In this document: piece after piece, positions 8,396 through 35,845 of the stretch
Layout of the letters: every line of letters starts with the position of its first letter
How positions within the stretch are numbered: position 1 is the first letter of the stretch
Assembly: GCA_031213475.1 (NCBI GenBank)
Contig: JARUPZ010000009.1
Span: 12,550,961 to 12,614,960, forward strand
Direction of reading: 5' to 3'
Length of the DNA: 64,000 bases
DNA from: Nereocystis luetkeana
Lineage: Eukaryota; Sar; Phaeophyceae; Laminariales; Laminariaceae
Notes under the pieces: model-generated
What the model was told of the DNA's origin: nothing
The model's database searches: none
What the model saw: only the letters and a program-made list of their open reading frames with translations
Translations under genes and position numbers: made by a program

Positions 8396-9651
8396 CTACT
8401 TGCAGGAACCGTTTAATACCAGGGACAGTCTAATACCAGGAACAGTCTAATACCAGGGACAGTCTAATACCAGGAACAGTCTATTACCAGGAACAGTCTA
8501 ATACCAGGAACAGTCTAATACCAGGGACAGTCTACTTGCAGGTACAGTCTAACACCAGGGACAGTCTAATACCAGGGACGTTCTACTTGCAGGAACAGTC
8601 TACTTGCAGGAGCAGTCTAATACCAGGGACAGTCAAATACCAGGATCAGTCAACCAGGGACAGTCTACTACCAGGAACAACAAACAGTCTAATACCAGGA
8701 ACAACAGTCTAATACCAGGGGCAGTCTAATACCAGGGACAGTATAATACCAGTGACAGTCTAATACCAGGAACAGTCTATACCAGGGGCAGTCTACTTGC
8801 AGGAATAGTCTACTTGTAGGAGCAGTGTAATACCAGGGACAGTCTACGTGCAGGAACAGTCTAATACCAGGGACAGTCTAATACCAGGGACAATCCAATA
8901 CCAGGAACAGTCTAATACCAGGAACAACCTAATACCACGGACAGTCTAATACCAGGGACAGTCTACCAACCAAGAACAGTCTAATACCAGGAACAGTCTA
9001 ATACCAGGAACAGTCTAATACCAGGTACAGTCTAATACCAGGGACAGTCTAATACCAGGAACAATCTAATACCAGGAACAACAGTCTACTTACTTGCAGG
9101 AGCAGTCTATTACCAGGGACAGTCTAAGGCTCATTCTTAACGGAGAGCTTTTTTTCCAATTTTTTCCCAAGTTTGGAAATAATCGGAGATATCGAGGCGT
9201 TCTGTCACTATATTATTCGTGAAATTCTCCAGAAGCAAAAATATCAAGTTCGTTAACATTCCAATATTTGGAAAAAAACAGGAAAATATGGAAGATTGAA
9301 AAAATTGCGCGAAAAAAATGTCGAAAAATTGGAAAAACTGCTCTCCGATAAGAATGACCATTCCAATATTTAATTTGGGAAAAAAACTGGAAAATATGGA
9401 AGATTGAAAAATTGCGCGAAAAAAATGTCGAAAATTTGGAAAAACCGCTCTCCGATAAGAATGACCATTCCAATATTCGAAAAAAACCCAGGGAAATATG
9501 GAAGATTAAAAATTGCGCGAAAAAAATGTCGAAAATTTGGAAAAACAGCTCTCCGATAAGAATGACCCTAATACCAGGGACAGTCTAATACCAGGAACAA
9601 ACAGTCTAATACCAGGACCAGTCTAATACCAGGGACAGTCTACTTGCAGGT
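8396..9651. repeat. 17-bp minisatellite (CTAATACCAGGGACAGT)
   Basis: The tandem unit CTAATACCAGG(G/A)ACAGT is repeated about 45 times, with variants (CTACTTGCAGG(A/T)ACAGT) and small deletions. The array is broken at 9128-9567 by an inserted TIR element and resumes at 9568. It is non-coding in all frames. Confidence 0.93.
9128..9567. mobile_element. TIR element nested in the minisatellite (440 bp)
   Basis: The left end GGCTCATTCTTAACGGAGAGC and the right end GCTCTCCGATAAGAATGACC are inverted repeats with one indel and a mismatch. The flanks are CTAA (9124-9127) and CTAA (9568-9571), a plausible 4-bp target duplication. Its right part (about 9257-9567) is three tandem copies of a roughly 105-bp unit (ATATGGAAGATTGAAAAA, TGCGCGAAAAAAATGTCGAAAA). 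Each unit ends with the terminal motif CTCTCCGATAAGAATGACC. No coding sequence. Confidence 0.72.
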
Positions 9652-21725: not shown

Positions 21726-22084
21726 CATCGGCGCCCATACACACCCTACTGTCGTTCCCCTCTCCTGCATTTTTTCTCGTCTTCTTCTGTTTTTCTGTCC
21801 GCGTCGGTCGTGCAGCATTATTATTATATTACTGATGTTTAACAGTTTTTGTTTCGTTTCATTTTTTACATGGCATTCTGTGCCAGGCGGGTGGGGTGTA
21901 ATTCTATCACTTCAGGCGAAGTTTCTCACGCGTGCCCGAATAAACGGACGCTGTTGCAATAATGAGGTACCTTTGTCACGAAACTGCTGCACGGGATTGC
22001 TCCCAGAGGTTAAAAAGTTTTTGCTTCGGCAAACGGCGGCCGGCCAACTCGACCCGGATCTCTGAGCCTAATCCTAAACCTATG

Positions 22085-22595
22085 TAAGGCCACTTCTTGT
22101 GCAGTCGGATTAGCAGTCAGTTGGAAATGGTGCTATCGGCACGTTCGCACGAGCTTTTGCCCCAAAAATGTGCGAAACGGCTGTTTCTTGCCTCAGAATG
22201 ACTTGGACTTCTCTCCAAGACCTATCTAGAGCTGTTTTCCGCTTCTCCAGGTGCCCAGTTGCAGGAAATCACCTCTGGTACTTTTCCGATCCAACTGGGT
22301 CAAATACGATTACAACCCCCGACCGGATCGGAAAAAACGTTTTTCCGATCCGATGCCCGATCGTAATCGTATTTGACCCAGTTGGATCGGAAACGTACCG
22401 AAGGTGATTTCCTGCAACTGGGCGCATGGAGAAGCGGGAAACAGCTCTAGATAGGTCTTGGAGAAAAGTAAGTGCAAGTCATTCTGAGGCGAGAAACGGC
22501 AGTTTCGCAGATTTTCGGGGCAAAGGCTCGTTTTTACGTGCTGATGGCACCATCTCCAACTGACTGCAAATCCGACTGCATAAGAAGTGGCCTAA
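22085..22595. mobile_element. foldback element: 511-bp imperfect inverted repeat
   Basis: The left arm runs TAAGGCCACTTCTTGTGCAG ... CAACTGGGTCAAATACGATT. The right arm is its reverse complement out to CATAAGAAGTGGCCTAA. Arms of about 250 bp are roughly 88-90% identical by eye and meet at CGGAAAAAACGTTTTTCCG near 22340 with almost no spacer. Transcribed RNA would form a long hairpin. There is no ORF and no clear target duplication. Confidence 0.85.
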
Positions 22596-23118
22596 CGATA
22601 AAATAACCAGGCAGGGCCTGCTTTGTTCGAGTTTCAGCTGGTCGTCGTGGTTGGGACGGCTCTTTGTTGTTCGGGCAAGTCTATACAAGGAAGTTCGCGT
22701 AAACGGTCAAATCTACGCCAGATCACGTGGATGGTGTCTATGATTGAAACAAACAAGCGCTGGACGCTGCCCGAGGGGTACTGATACAGCTGTCGACGAA
22801 TACAGAAACGAAATGATAGATCGGGTGGCCAGGTATCGGTTAGACTAGCTCTTACAATCTACTCGTAGCTGACTATTCATTGTTTGTTTCTTGTTGAGTT
22901 GTTCAATGGGGGGGCGCGACAGCTTCAGTACTGACACCTGGCACTGCTATTATTGACGGCAGTAGAAAGGAGACAAAAAAGGGTGTGGCTAAATTCTCGA
23001 ATCGATTTTCTAGGCCAGACGGGCACCAATGTTGCTATCTCCGCCTGGAATACGATGCTATATTTTTTCCTCCTTCTCTCTTGCTTCTTGCATTTTTGCG
23101 TTTCTCCTCCCTAATCCG

Positions 23119-23187: not shown

Positions 23188-24394
23188 GAAAAATTCAGTT
23201 GGAAGTGGGGAGAAGATGAATTGCCGATCGTAGACCAGTATATATACCTTGGCGTAGAGATCTCTAAAGACTGCTCTTGGGACGCACATATATATAGCAA
23301 AAGTAATAGGAAAGGGTAAAGCACACATAATCAAGATGGATGCGATCCTAACAGACTCGCACCTTGACACCAGGATGAAGAGATGTATCCTGATGAATGT
23401 GATAGTACCAAAGCTAGAATAAGCAGGAGAAGTATAGGAAGGGAATGAATGCGAAACTCGTAAAATAGTTGGAAACAGTACAGATGACAGCAGCTAAAAA
23501 AATCTCAAGATGCTCAAGTACGACTAGTAATACAGTATTAGCAGCAGAACTGGGAATGCACCCACTCAAGACAAAGAAACAGGGATATGAAAAAGTTGAA
23601 ATGGCAATATAAAGCAAGGAACATGCCAAAAAAGAGGTTGCCGGCCATAGTTGATGAAGCTGTATGTGAGAAAGTAACAAAAGAGCGAACTGGAATAAGG
23701 TGGGATAGCGTAGTTGAGAAAGTATGGAAGGATATAGGGGGTAACCAAGAAGAGGTGATGTTCGCCGGGAAGTTTGGGAAGTACAAGGCAGAAGAAGTAG
23801 AAGAAAGGATAGAAAGAAGGGAAAGGCTAGCGCTACGAAACAAGGTGGAATCGGGAAAACACCTAGAGATATACGGGAGATTGAGGGAAGGAATAAGAGT
23901 GAAAACGTATCTGCACGGCCCGATGGACTTCGCGAAAACGCTGAAGCTGCGGTTTCGTGTAGGCGACCTGGACTTGCCAGAAAGAAGAAAGAGGTATACC
24001 AGTAGCCGGGAGGAGGAGGGAATAGATGCACAGATGTGCCCGTGTGGCAAAGCGATAGAGAGTAGAACTCACATAGTAGGAGAATGTAAAATATACAAGG
24101 AGGAACGGGATGTGTTAGAAGAGGAGATGAGGGAAATAGAAGAATGTGACATAGTAGGAGTTTGACACACTAGATAGCAGCGAGAAAACGATCTCTATCC
24201 TAGGAGATAGATGGTGGCCACAGGCGGCCAAACAGGAAGGGGATATGATTAACAAAAAAAATGTAGGTATTATATGGAAACAACGTACTGAGCGCCCAAT
24301 TCTTGGAGGTGTCTCTATTAGGAGTAGGAACGGTGCTCCGTCTCGAAAGGCATGCGTGGTCAATGGTCAAATGACTAAGGCAAGCAACAAATGA
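23188..24394 (+). pseudogene. non-LTR retrotransposon (LINE) relic, C-terminal part of the RT ORF
   Basis: The frame starting near 23188 reads PIVDQYIYLGVEISKDCSWD, the familiar post-catalytic LINE segment (YLGV-I..D.SW..H). Frameshifts and stops follow. Next comes KKISRCSSTTSNTVLAAELG and an open 192-residue frame at 23587-24165 with KARNMPKKRLP, LRFRVGDLDLPERR and a Cys/His knuckle CPCGKAIESRTHIVGEC, typical of LINE C-termini. A further shift near 24160 leads to SILGDRWWPQAAKQEGD and SIRSRNGAPSRKACVVNGQ, ending at a TGA at 24392. The catalytic RT core and endonuclease are absent. The copy is 5'-truncated and inactive. Confidence 0.78.
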
Positions 24395-31730: not shown

Positions 31731-31735
31731 ATAGG

Positions 31736-32086
31736 TAAGGGATCAATTCGAGCACCGGGTGCGCTTGGGTGATGCGCGGGTGAGGCTTGCCATGAGGCGG
31801 TGGGCCTTGCTCACGGAGAGCGGTCGATCGGGAGCATTCGCGCCATAAGGCGGTGGAAGGAGAGAAGATAAATATCAATTATTTTAGTGTACTGGTGGAC
31901 TGAGAGCAAGGGGGCCACGTTCCCCTAGACTCTATAAGACCCCTGAAAGCAGGTCAAACACAATTTTATGCAACTCCTCGGGGAAACACTAATCCCGCCG
32001 CAATCTCCGTAGATATATTACATTTACAAGAATCACACAATTCAGTACAATCAGAAAATCAGACTTTGGTACGAGCAAATCCCACA
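31736..32086 (-). repeat. 3' LTR of the Copia-type element
   Basis: 351 bp, apparently identical to 35490-35840. The boundary is fixed by the ATAGG duplication on the outer side and by loss of identity after CCCACA on the inner side. Confidence 0.93.
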
Positions 32087-32344
32087 TTCCCCCTGCTCGT
32101 TTCACAGTCCTGATAACTCTCGTCCGGTCAAAATATCAAAAATAAAACCTATGCATCCAACGCCTTTAATGATAACACCCTGAAATCTCAAAATAAAATA
32201 ACACAGTCCGAAGGAAGGTCACTAAAGTGTCAATCATGGCTAACGATCATCGACACCCGTTGGGATTAACACGAATTTTACTAAGGTACTGGCCATGGCT
32301 AACGATCACCAGTACCCGATGGAATCAATACCACACCAATAGAG

Positions 32345-33417
32345 TCACCACATATTCATCGCAAGGCTACGGTGGAACTCGAACGATTCTCGCGAGATGG
32401 CCTTGGTTAGAAAATCCGCATGCTGAAAAGGGGACGGTACGTGGATGATCGATATCTCTTTCCTCCCAACCAGTTCCCTGAGGAAGTGGTGTCGCACGTC
32501 GATGTGCTTGGAGTTTGAGTTGGTGATAGGGTTCTGTGCAAGCTGCACCGCACCCTGATTATCCTCGAACACCGGTATGCACGGCATGCCTACATCAGGC
32601 AACATGAAGCGCCAAACCTGCCTCAAGAACAACACTTCCTTAATGACGTCTGCAAGTGCCACGTACTCTGCCTCCGTCGTGGAAAGTGTGACGCATTTCT
32701 GAGTCCTAGAAAACCAAGACACGCATGCACCCCCACACATCACCAATCCTCCTGAAACTGACCTTCTGTCAGCCGCCTTGCTTGCATAGTCTGCGTCAGC
32801 AAACACCTGCAAGCTCAGCCCCCCGTCCGTACCTCTCTGAAAAGTGACTCCGGAAGAACTAGTCCTCCTCACATACCCTAAAATACCAAGTGCTGCCCTC
32901 CAGTGCACTAACTTGGGAGCAGCGCAGTACCTAGCCACTGCTCTTACTGCGTTGGAGATGTCTGGCCGAGTCTGAGTTGAAAGCCACATCAGTGAGCCAA
33001 CCAACTCGCGAAACGGCCAGCTCCCTGGCGCTTCATCCTGGTCAAAGTCCGCAAGTTTTGTGCCAACAGGGAGCGGAACACTCTTACCAAACTCTATCCC
33101 GTATTCATCCGCCAATTGTTCAGCGAATGTCTGCTGGGAAATCTTCAGCACCCCCTTTTCCCAATCCCTCTCGTAGAAACACCCCGAATACCAACGCAAC
33201 TCTCCCAGGTTCTTAACTGGAACCATCTTGTCCAATTCCTTGCCAAACTGGTCACACCTTGCCTTCTCCCCTACCGCAAAAATATCATCCACATGCACCA
33301 CTATAGTCATCACTACTCTCCCCTCATCCATCAAACGAAATACGCATGCATCAGACGCATGAAAACATTTCCCTCAAGATCAGACTGCACGAAAGCCTGC
33401 TCAACAGTCAAAATGGC
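32345..33417 (-). pseudogene. Copia reverse transcriptase (internally deleted) and RNase H
   Basis: The minus strand shows the RT segment VEQAFVQSDLEGNVFMRL (about 33410-33357), normally followed by some tens of residues before the next block. Here it jumps with a frame change to SDACVFRLMDEGRVVMTIVV and HVDDIFAVG (the catalytic VDD box), so the RT centre is deleted. The rest is open to 32345: a connection segment, PLPVGTKL, GSLMWLSTQTRPDISNAV, and then RNase H with catalytic acids in FADADYA, STTEAEY and EDNQGA and the closing HIDVRHHF. RNase H looks intact; the RT cannot be. The downstream end lies 258 bp from the 3' LTR. Confidence 0.9.
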
Positions 33418-34380
33418 AGTAGAACTTGTGTCGGCAAGATCTGACTGGAAGAAGCTACACACAATGTCAAGCAAAAACGAACCACTACCTGCGCTTTTTA
33501 CATAGCAGTACCGAGCAAAATAATAAAAAAGACACAACAAAAACACTATCAATACCAACCGTTACCCAATATAATAGTACCACTACAACCACACATCACG
33601 ACCGTCGAGCATCCACCTCATTTTCTCCGTTCACCATGCCCGGTCGTGATTTGGTCCTCTCGTCAACCGTCCACCTGATGCAATCAACGCAGTGCAGTCT
33701 CCAAGCAGAGATTCGGCAAATCATCGACAGCGAAAGGGGGGAAAAGCAAAGGTACTCGAATGAGGGAATCTGGTGACTCTTCATCCTATCGGACGAAACA
33801 TTAATAGCTTGGTGATATTTAGTTGGAAGAGGATATCACCCGCATGGCCTGTGTACACCTCAAATATTGTCTGTGGGGGGAGCAACCAGGGTCATGCAAA
33901 CTATCAATCAAGATACCCGGTATTCCGTGTGAATTTCCGATGTGCTCAAACTGAACTCTCATACTACCCTCCCTAGTTTGTGCCCATCGCAAACATTATA
34001 TATACCAGTCAAGTTTTCTATCCTCCAGCCGCGCTCGTCTCAGTAGTTTTTACTCGTATACGAACTGCGTTTTTGTTGTCCAACACGTTACGTGTATCGT
34101 ATATTACGTGAATCGTACATATGTCCGGAACTTGATACGTATACTCGTAAATGAAAGCTCAAAGTTCCAAAAGTTGCAGTCACACACGCCACGCATCAAA
34201 TGGCCATCACCAAATTATGACAAGTCTCGAAACGCTGCAAAACAAAAAAAAACACAAGATCAAATCCACAGCGAAGACTACGACTACTCGTACTCGTACG
34301 AGTATCACGTTTCTAAAAACAAACCAAACACAGACAGCAAGAACGTGCCTGATGAGCAATTGCTCGAAGATGATGGTCCT
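33418..34380 (-). other. internal region of the LTR element without coding sequence
   Basis: In an intact Copia element protease, integrase and the RT start would lie here. No such motifs are seen on the minus strand in any frame, so this looks like unrelated filler or badly decayed DNA. Confidence 0.6.
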
Positions 34381-35237
34381 TCACTTTTCTCGCACGCGCG
34401 CCCGCCGTAGCCGAGTCGGACGCCGACCGGCCACCTCGCACCCCCACCCCACGAAGGTGCCGCTGCATGACCAACCCGTACCGATCCCAACTCGCTCCCA
34501 AGCGCTTCCATTCGGCGCACCGTCGTCCTCGTCAATGTTCTCCGAACACCCGACAGCTCCTTCCATCACACCAATCTCCCCCACCAGACCCATGCCATCC
34601 ATTGGTACCCCCTCACGTTCCAAACCGTGCTGCTCCTCCTCATCCGACTCCTCCAGTTCCGTCTCCCTCACCATTCCCATGCCATCCACCGGTACCACTT
34701 CACGCTCCAAACCGTGCTGCTCCTCCTCATCCGACTCCTCCAGTTCCGTCTCCCTCACCATTCCCATGCCATCCACCGGTACCACTTCACGCTCCAAACC
34801 GTGCTGCTCCTCCTCATCCGACTCCTCCTCCTCAGTAATATCCATCAACTCCTCCTCGTCGCCTTTCTTGACGTACGTAGAAGCCCGTACTTGTTGTTGC
34901 TGCTGCTGTTGCTGTTGGGCCGCACTTTTTGCTCTCGATAGCACTGGGTCGGCGGGTGACGAGTTGTCGCAGCTCCTCGAACCATTGTCCTGGGCTTGGT
35001 GCGTGTTCTCTGTCTTTTTCCTTGCCTCCTCTCGTGCATTCGCGGCGGTTGCGTAACCCCTCCTAGCTCTCAGCTGCTGGTCAACATGTTTTTCAATGGC
35101 TTCTTGTTGCTATTTGACGGTAAGCAAGTGGAAAGATGATATATCCATGGGGCATCCTGCGCCCGGCCTACCGTGACGCTCCTCCTGCTCCTGCTCCTGC
35201 TTCTGCTGCTTTGCTGCTGCTGCCGCTGCCGCCGCTG

Positions 35238-35279
<42 letters not shown>

Positions 35280-35430
35280 ATGGGGCTGCTGCTGTTTCCT
35301 GTAGCTCCTTCCATTCTTCAGGAGTCCATATCCCCAACCCGATGTCCGCTCCCTCGCGGTGTCGCCTCTCCTGATCGAGGATCCTTGTCATCCAAGGAAG
35401 CTCCTCCCCTAAAACCACAAAACCCACCAT
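34381..35430 (-). pseudogene. gag-position ORF of the LTR element, one in-frame TAG
   Basis: It begins 59 bp inside the 5' LTR with MVGFVVLGEELPWMTRILDQ, continues through WTPEEWKELQE, a poly-Ala run (GCA repeats), and KQQKQEQEQEE. A TAG at 35112-35110 interrupts it where a Gln codon (CAG) would fit, and the same frame then stays open: QQEAIEKHVDQQLRARRG, a poly-Gln run, and three copies of a 29-residue acidic unit (ESDEEEQHGLEREVVPVDG...). It stops at 34381. The total is about 350 codons. No zinc knuckle or known gag domain is recognised, so the gag role rests on position alone. The plus-strand ORF over the same DNA is a shadow. Confidence 0.6.
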
Positions 35431-35489
35431 GGTGCGCTACACCCCGTGCCCGAGCGACCGTGACCATATGTCAGAGGCTAACGCTAGCG

Positions 35490-35840
35490 TAAGGGATCAA
35501 TTCGAGCACCGGGTGCGCTTGGGTGATGCGCGGGTGAGGCTTGCCATGAGGCGGTGGGCCTTGCTCACGGAGAGCGGTCGATCGGGAGCATTCGCGCCAT
35601 AAGGCGGTGGAAGGAGAGAAGATAAATATCAATTATTTTAGTGTACTGGTGGACTGAGAGCAAGGGGGCCACGTTCCCCTAGACTCTATAAGACCCCTGA
35701 AAGCAGGTCAAACACAATTTTATGCAACTCCTCGGGGAAACACTAATCCCGCCGCAATCTCCGTAGATATATTACATTTACAAGAATCACACAATTCAGT
35801 ACAATCAGAAAATCAGACTTTGGTACGAGCAAATCCCACA
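35490..35840 (-). repeat. 5' LTR of the Copia-type element
   Basis: 351 bp, begins TGTGGGATTTGC in element orientation. Just inside it lies CGCTAGCGTTAGCC, the primer-site position. It is not the usual TGG-starting tRNA complement. Confidence 0.93.
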
Positions 35841-35845
35841 ATAGG

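Follow-up and report, generated by a model that had tools for sequence, protein, structure and literature searches.

The 64,000-nucleotide stretch of Nereocystis luetkeana DNA analyzed here, hereafter called the window, covers positions 12550961-12614960 of contig C9 in a 465-Mb assembly of 1,987 contigs and carries an element with long terminal repeats (LTRs) on its minus strand. We interpret this element as a recently inserted, non-autonomous member of the Ty1/Copia group, probably copied and integrated by the proteins of fuller Copia elements that share its LTR and 3' end (probability about 0.9). This interpretation is based on its identical LTRs and target-site duplication, on a replacement of the gag-to-integrase region common to most of its relatives, on a deletion destroying the reverse transcriptase (RT) that is found at two insertions, on the coexistence of fuller elements with the same ends, and on LTR subtypes common to some non-autonomous and fuller copies. 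Mobilization in trans by an autonomous partner had already been proposed in the initial annotation of this stretch, and it is supported by fuller elements now found in the genome, which have this LTR and 3' region too.

A recent insertion with a rebuilt 5' half

Base-by-base comparison of the two LTRs revealed no difference (351/351), and the ATAGG duplication flanking them is perfect, both as first annotated (Table 1). The element is a member of Ty1/Copia: the LTR pair and the short target duplication are present in the window copy, and the RVT_2 domain and the order integrase before RT are seen in relatives only. Read from the 5' LTR, it consists of the primer-site side and leader, an open reading frame (ORF1), a roughly 1.47-kb block in which ORF1 ends, a damaged RT-RNase H (RT-RH) region, a purine tract and the 3' LTR. 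ARAGORN predicted no tRNA gene in the window. A half-tRNA primer with a particular anticodon arm was also considered and dropped, one pattern search having given no match.

The 342-amino acid (aa) frame carries what we take to be the RT catalytic motif and RNase H motifs. This fragment alone has no Pfam match; longer frames of relatives match RVT_2 (L013, 2.1e-24; L018, 2.8e-42; L034, 6e-41; fetched loci are numbered with L, contigs with C). None of the five scanned frames of the window element matched a protease or integrase (rve) model. The gaps in pol described in the initial annotation are borne out by the missing integrase and protease matches and by the loss of 139 bp from the RT centre, but the 5' part proved to be a replacement and not merely a deletion. 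Internal deletion of a Copia element does not fully describe this copy, whose 5' half is a composite module with its own ORF1.

Relatives were collected by searching the genome with the LTR (43 matches; best 40 of 236 candidates scored) and fetching 24 stretches around the matches, of which L033 was later extended; L018 and L033 are one locus. Fetched copies were chosen among the best matches, so that intact ones are favoured, and several stretches are truncated or mosaic (e.g., L012, L026 and L031). Six other family copies (L013, L017, L022, L025, L028 and L030) have 100% identical LTR pairs. A perfect 5-bp duplication was found in 11 of 14 tested elements, with L024 duplicating L023; L014, L017 and L022 lack it. 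L023 (C214) and L024 (C6) carry one element whose flanks agree on both contigs, probably a duplicate or haplotype contig.

The same RT deletion at two insertions

The 139 bp of RT centre missing from the window copy are kept in L009, L013 and L014. Exactly the same deletion junction is present in L032 and L035, and a whole-genome search with a 45-nt junction pattern, allowing up to 3 mismatches, found it at three places, two on C1 and one corresponding to the window (control, 0). These results overturn the idea of a deletion private to the window copy, the alternative raised in the initial annotation. The C1 array containing the deleted copies is bounded on both sides by CTTGG, as opposed to ATAGG at the window element. 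Visual reading of the breakpoints gave no evident microhomology, which makes independent recurrence of the deletion unlikely. The same junction in two insertions with different duplications implies at least two insertion events from a template that was already RT-dead, barring transfer of the lesion by conversion.

Only three copies with the deletion were found, both C1 copies being in one array, which would fit a deletion shared between C9 and C1 through gene conversion or segmental duplication. We consider such sharing very improbable, because target duplications and flanks differ (the 5' flank of the C1 array is unlike that of the window element), no matching flanks beyond the LTRs were seen, the 5' LTRs agree at only 336 of 350 positions, and 31 mismatches separate the copies over 2.6-2.7 kb of LTR and internal region in each comparison. 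It is scarcely credible that a complete element inserted in the window and lost its middle later. The TAG that cuts ORF1 is found only in the window copy (0 of 45 matched occurrences in the fetched relatives, with L012 occurring twice and L024 duplicating L023), indicating that part of the damage dates from this copying event or occurred in place. A later loss of the middle is nevertheless already contradicted by identical lesions at other insertions with other duplications: the RT junction recurs on C1, and the gag-to-integrase replacement is common to 21 of the 24 fetched relatives.

On C1 (positions 21248300-21260500), L035 and L032 form an LTR-internal-LTR-internal-LTR array with mixed 3' ends and one perfect CTTGG duplication.

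Fuller Copia elements share the LTR and the 3' end

Fuller relatives share the LTR, the primer-site side and the 3' end with the window element. In L034, positions 746-1046 align to the window LTR over its full length, apart from about 50 missing bp. A 1692-aa frame of this locus matches Retrotran_gag_2 (1.1e-4; 22.2 bits, below the cut-off of 27), Pol_BBD (9e-11) and rve (3.5e-11), and is followed by an RT-RH frame matching RVT_2 (6e-41). The RT-RH region of L034 is 99.9% identical to the window element over 958 bp. The L033/L018 locus, 99.8% identical over 1268 bp, matches rve and RVT_2. The rve frame precedes the RVT_2 frame in both loci, an order read in the fuller relatives only.

LTR comparison paired some non-autonomous copies closely with fuller ones: L029 and L030 are identical to L034 at 298-299 of 300 positions, and L015 and L016 to L033 at 351-352 of 354. 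A looser pairing was observed for L035 and L032 with L019 (344-345/354). Several points weigh against trans-mobilization by these elements. The window LTR has no near-identical partner among the three fuller LTRs compared (335/351 with L033, 335/351 with L019 and 285/298 with L034). The full-length relatives called for in the initial annotation were found as the fuller copies L033/L018 and L034, but none was read end to end: the 5' LTR is truncated in L033 and L019, and L034 was read without its 3' LTR. No protease model matched in L034, and the fuller copies themselves have a UAG inside pol.

The truncation of the 5' LTR falls at almost the same place in L033 and L019 (LTR position about 173-182), and an inverted LTR piece lies alongside in L019.

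The non-autonomous family carries its own ORF1

The ORF1 part of the window element is present in 21 of the 24 fetched relatives; in L020 only a later stretch of the internal block is found, and L018 and L019 have neither. When the ORF1 protein of L013 was searched against the genome (best 120 of 407 candidates scored), 144 match rows were obtained. Counted by hand, 51 of them align at least 301 of the 334 residues in a single piece at 90-100% identity, and other rows are split in two pieces. Sixteen rows at 57-62% identity are restricted to residues 98/99 to 199. Among 44 distinct fetched copies, 40 have ORF1 open for at least 250 aa (exceptions: L020, L029, L048 and L057), a count that leaves out L024 as a duplicate of L023, the fuller L018, L019, L033 and L034, and the window copy. 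A codon test on ORF1 gave omega 0.57 against 1 (p 1.3e-4; 40 copies, 255 codons), and an earlier site count on 22 copies pointed in the same direction. We do not rely on this sign of purifying selection, because broken-frame copies were excluded, the null kappa came from a coarse grid, and the controls were also below 1 (RT-RH: omega 0.74, p 0.60, 10 copies including fuller elements; a 131-aa frame: omega 0.66, p 0.30, 17 copies).

ORF1 residues 100-182 match residues 8-90 of the gag protein of a fuller relative, with 61% identity over 84 aligned positions. Outside these residues, ORF1 has no significant match to the gag polyprotein, and the similarity ends before the capsid-type domain (Retrotran_gag_2 at gag 188-320). 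There was no gag family among the ORF1 matches, the best being low-complexity (Ribosomal_60s, 21.4 bits for a cut-off of 28.1). Neither of the fuller relatives L033 and L034 contains a match to the 1.47-kb block. The 3' half is near-identical to fuller elements, while ORF1 reaches only 61% to the gag N terminus and the block is unmatched; the element is thus read as a putative mosaic in which a fresh 3' module is joined to an older 5' one. Two 3' ends are found with the one 5' module, either an LTR starting TGTGGG with RT-RNase H kept to the end, or an LTR starting TGTCGGAC with a different 3' internal end. A shorter variant of 3349 bp, L010 (C1:12455700-12460800; CTACG duplication), has the ORF1 module joined to a full-length RT frame, with most of the 1.47-kb block absent.

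There is a lesser, still appreciable chance that the 1.47-kb block and the ends of ORF1 are cargo acquired from a host locus. The unmatched block and the lack of a significant gag polyprotein match beyond residues 100-182 would be expected from such a capture. A part of ORF1 is gag-derived, however; of the 16 rows at 57-62% identity, 9 fall within frames of 1501-1732 aa, as long as a frame running from gag to integrase, and no host gene was recognized among the ORF1 matches listed. A host gene as the source of the entire ORF1 is a candidate weakened by the match of residues 100-182 to the gag N terminus.

L009, L013, L014, L015, L029 and L030 have open RT-RH frames, which measure 415-451 aa in several relatives. 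Such rows recur in the RT-RH protein search of the genome (best 93 of 2544 candidates scored), and in L013 the match of this frame to RVT_2 begins at model position 79. The lineage could then once have supplied its own RT-RNase H and ORF1, before the RT centre was lost, and borrowed only protease and integrase. This is quite improbable, given that the L013 match lacks the first 78 positions of RVT_2, that the RT-RH codon test fails to reject neutrality, and that the RT-deleted sublineage moved nonetheless.

Full trans-mobilization remains the reading we prefer for this class of many copies lacking the integrase and protease region. Family members retain the required cis-acting parts (LTRs, primer site and purine tract) as well as their own ORF1, and many keep an RT-RNase H stretch, with none of the integrase or protease region. 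Their RNA would be reverse transcribed and integrated by the proteins of fuller Copia elements. Both RNAs may be co-packaged in one particle, where template switching could be the source of the mosaic 3' ends, and ORF1 might have a role of its own. With an RT-dead template whose lesion is shared between insertions, LTR subtypes that track fuller relatives, and the presence of these relatives in the assembly, the family would offer a clean natural case of trans-mobilization.

A conserved UAG between integrase and RT

In the four loci read first (L010, L019, L033/L018 and L034), an in-frame UAG lies immediately ahead of the RT frame. It separates the integrase-side frame from the RT frame in L019, L033 and L034 (positions 6129-6131 in L034). 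In the RT-RH protein search (best 93 of 2544 candidates scored), the RT frame is, by hand count, 473 aa long in 19 of the 23 rows that begin with the first query residue at 85% identity or higher; its length is 471 or 476 aa in all 38 rows at 66-67% identity. The boundary was then read in 20 further loci picked to span the identity range, giving 24 loci in total. The UAG is present in 22 of them (L010, L019, L033, L034, L058-L063 and L066-L077), with RT identities from 100% to 66%; L064 and L065, two diverged copies, have a sense codon at this position. Directly 3' of the UAG, CAR is found in 22/22 loci and CAR-YYA in 21/22, L072 being the one that departs. These loci are related and the counts are not independent; the flanking residues nevertheless differ widely between groups. 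A genome search with RVT_2 (150 matches scored from 1397 candidates) placed about 70 of the scored matches, by hand count, in frames longer than 1000 aa, implying that many Copia elements of this genome have no stop at the integrase/RT position.

The conserved UAG in its CAR-YYA context suggests that RT is made by readthrough; the stop could also mark a separate re-initiation of RT. The usual boundary for such a stop is gag/pol. On balance, we lean towards a Copia clade that makes RT-RNase H only as a minority readthrough product of a leaky UAG, which has a context of the tobacco mosaic virus (TMV) type and lies between integrase and RT, not at gag/pol. The non-autonomous family would have shed everything upstream of this UAG, gained its own ORF resembling the gag N terminus, and repeatedly acquired LTRs and 3' ends from fuller elements. 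If the UAG is leaky, this would be a case of retroelement recoding at an unusual boundary.

According to PMC2754532, CAR YYA 3' of the UAG is essential for readthrough in TMV, and the UAG described here likewise has CAR YYA directly 3'. The env-like gene of SIRE1, a Copia-type plant element, is said to be expressed by stop codon suppression (PMC2829016). Unlike in TMV and SIRE1, the stop lies here between integrase and RT, and its readthrough is predicted from the sequence. Literature searches, limited to open-licence papers, found no Copia stop between integrase and RT among the papers listed.

Features of the window

Table 1. Coordinates of the Copia element and its parts in the window.
Feature	Position	Strand	Remarks
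Target-site duplication ATAGG, copy 1	31731-31735		Perfect
3' LTR, TGTGGG...CCCTTA in element sense	31736-32086	-	351/351 with 5' LTR
Polypurine tract GCAGGGGGAA (element sense)	32087-32096	-	Adjoins 3' LTR; identical sequence beside LTR of L013, L014 and L030
342-aa open frame, RT catalytic motif (presumed) through RNase H	32348-33373	-	958 bp of 3' region 99.9% identical to L034
Junction of 139-bp RT-centre deletion	33354-33355		Present at three genome places
RT stretch directly upstream of deletion	33355-33418	-	Within a 67-bp match, 92.5% to L034; frame differs from that of the 342-aa ORF
Block of about 1.47 kb	33419-34891		No match in fuller L033, L034; common to most other family members
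ORF1	34381-35430	-	Open in most fetched copies; cut here by TAG at 35110-35112
87-bp repeats inside ORF1	34575-34828		2.9 copies
ORF1 segment related to gag N terminus of fuller relative	34892-35177	-	74% DNA identity; 51/84 aligned aa
Primer-site side and leader, common with fuller relative	35427-35489	-	Primer-site side CGCTAGCG ends at 35489
5' LTR	35490-35840	-	351/351 with 3' LTR
Target-site duplication ATAGG, copy 2	35841-35845		Perfect

Elsewhere in the window, positions 22084-22596 hold a fold-back repeat of about 513 bp with an 86% match to its own reverse complement, and positions 8403-9127 a tandem array of about 42 copies of a 17-bp unit. An open frame of 207 aa at 23542-24162 (plus strand) has no Pfam match; from its appearance, it is presumably the C-terminal portion of an RT protein from a non-LTR retrotransposon.

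Comparison with known non-autonomous elements

TRIM and LARD elements have no coding capacity, and the open ORF1 and RT-RH frames of the relatives place the present family outside these classes. TR-GAG elements of plants were reportedly described by Chaparro et al. in 2015. They are short LTR elements with a single ORF containing a gag capsid-type domain and without a full pol. The present family resembles them, by this definition, in being a short LTR element with a gag-related ORF and no full pol. It differs in that the gag similarity stops short of the capsid-type domain, for which ORF1 has no match, and in that an RT-RNase H stretch is retained. The anatomy as predicted here, an ORF resembling the gag N terminus with no gag-family match together with a retained RT-RNase H, differs from that of TR-GAG, TRIM and LARD elements. 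Among the wheat elements discussed below, the prefix RLG denotes Gypsy.

In Ectocarpus, non-autonomous Copia elements with a gag-related ORF (Copia-N1_Ec32 and Copia-11_Ec32) are described in PMC12477816. Compared by description, the present family differs from them in also keeping an RT-RNase H stretch and an unrelated block of 1.47 kb. For wheat RLC_Angela, PMC9744471 reports that LTRs of non-autonomous sub-families cluster with those of autonomous partners, and that partners seemingly changed. Our family is likewise a Copia family with partner-tracking LTRs, and differs from that description by the replacement of its 5' half. The wheat pair RLG_Cereba and RLG_Quinta is matched by LTRs, primer site and purine tract, its non-autonomous partner contributing gag and being cross-mobilized, according to PMC11302176; in contrast to the family described here, the wheat pair inserts specifically in centromeres. 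Because of these precedents from Ectocarpus, wheat Angela and Quinta, the mechanism proposed for the kelp element would be of a known kind.

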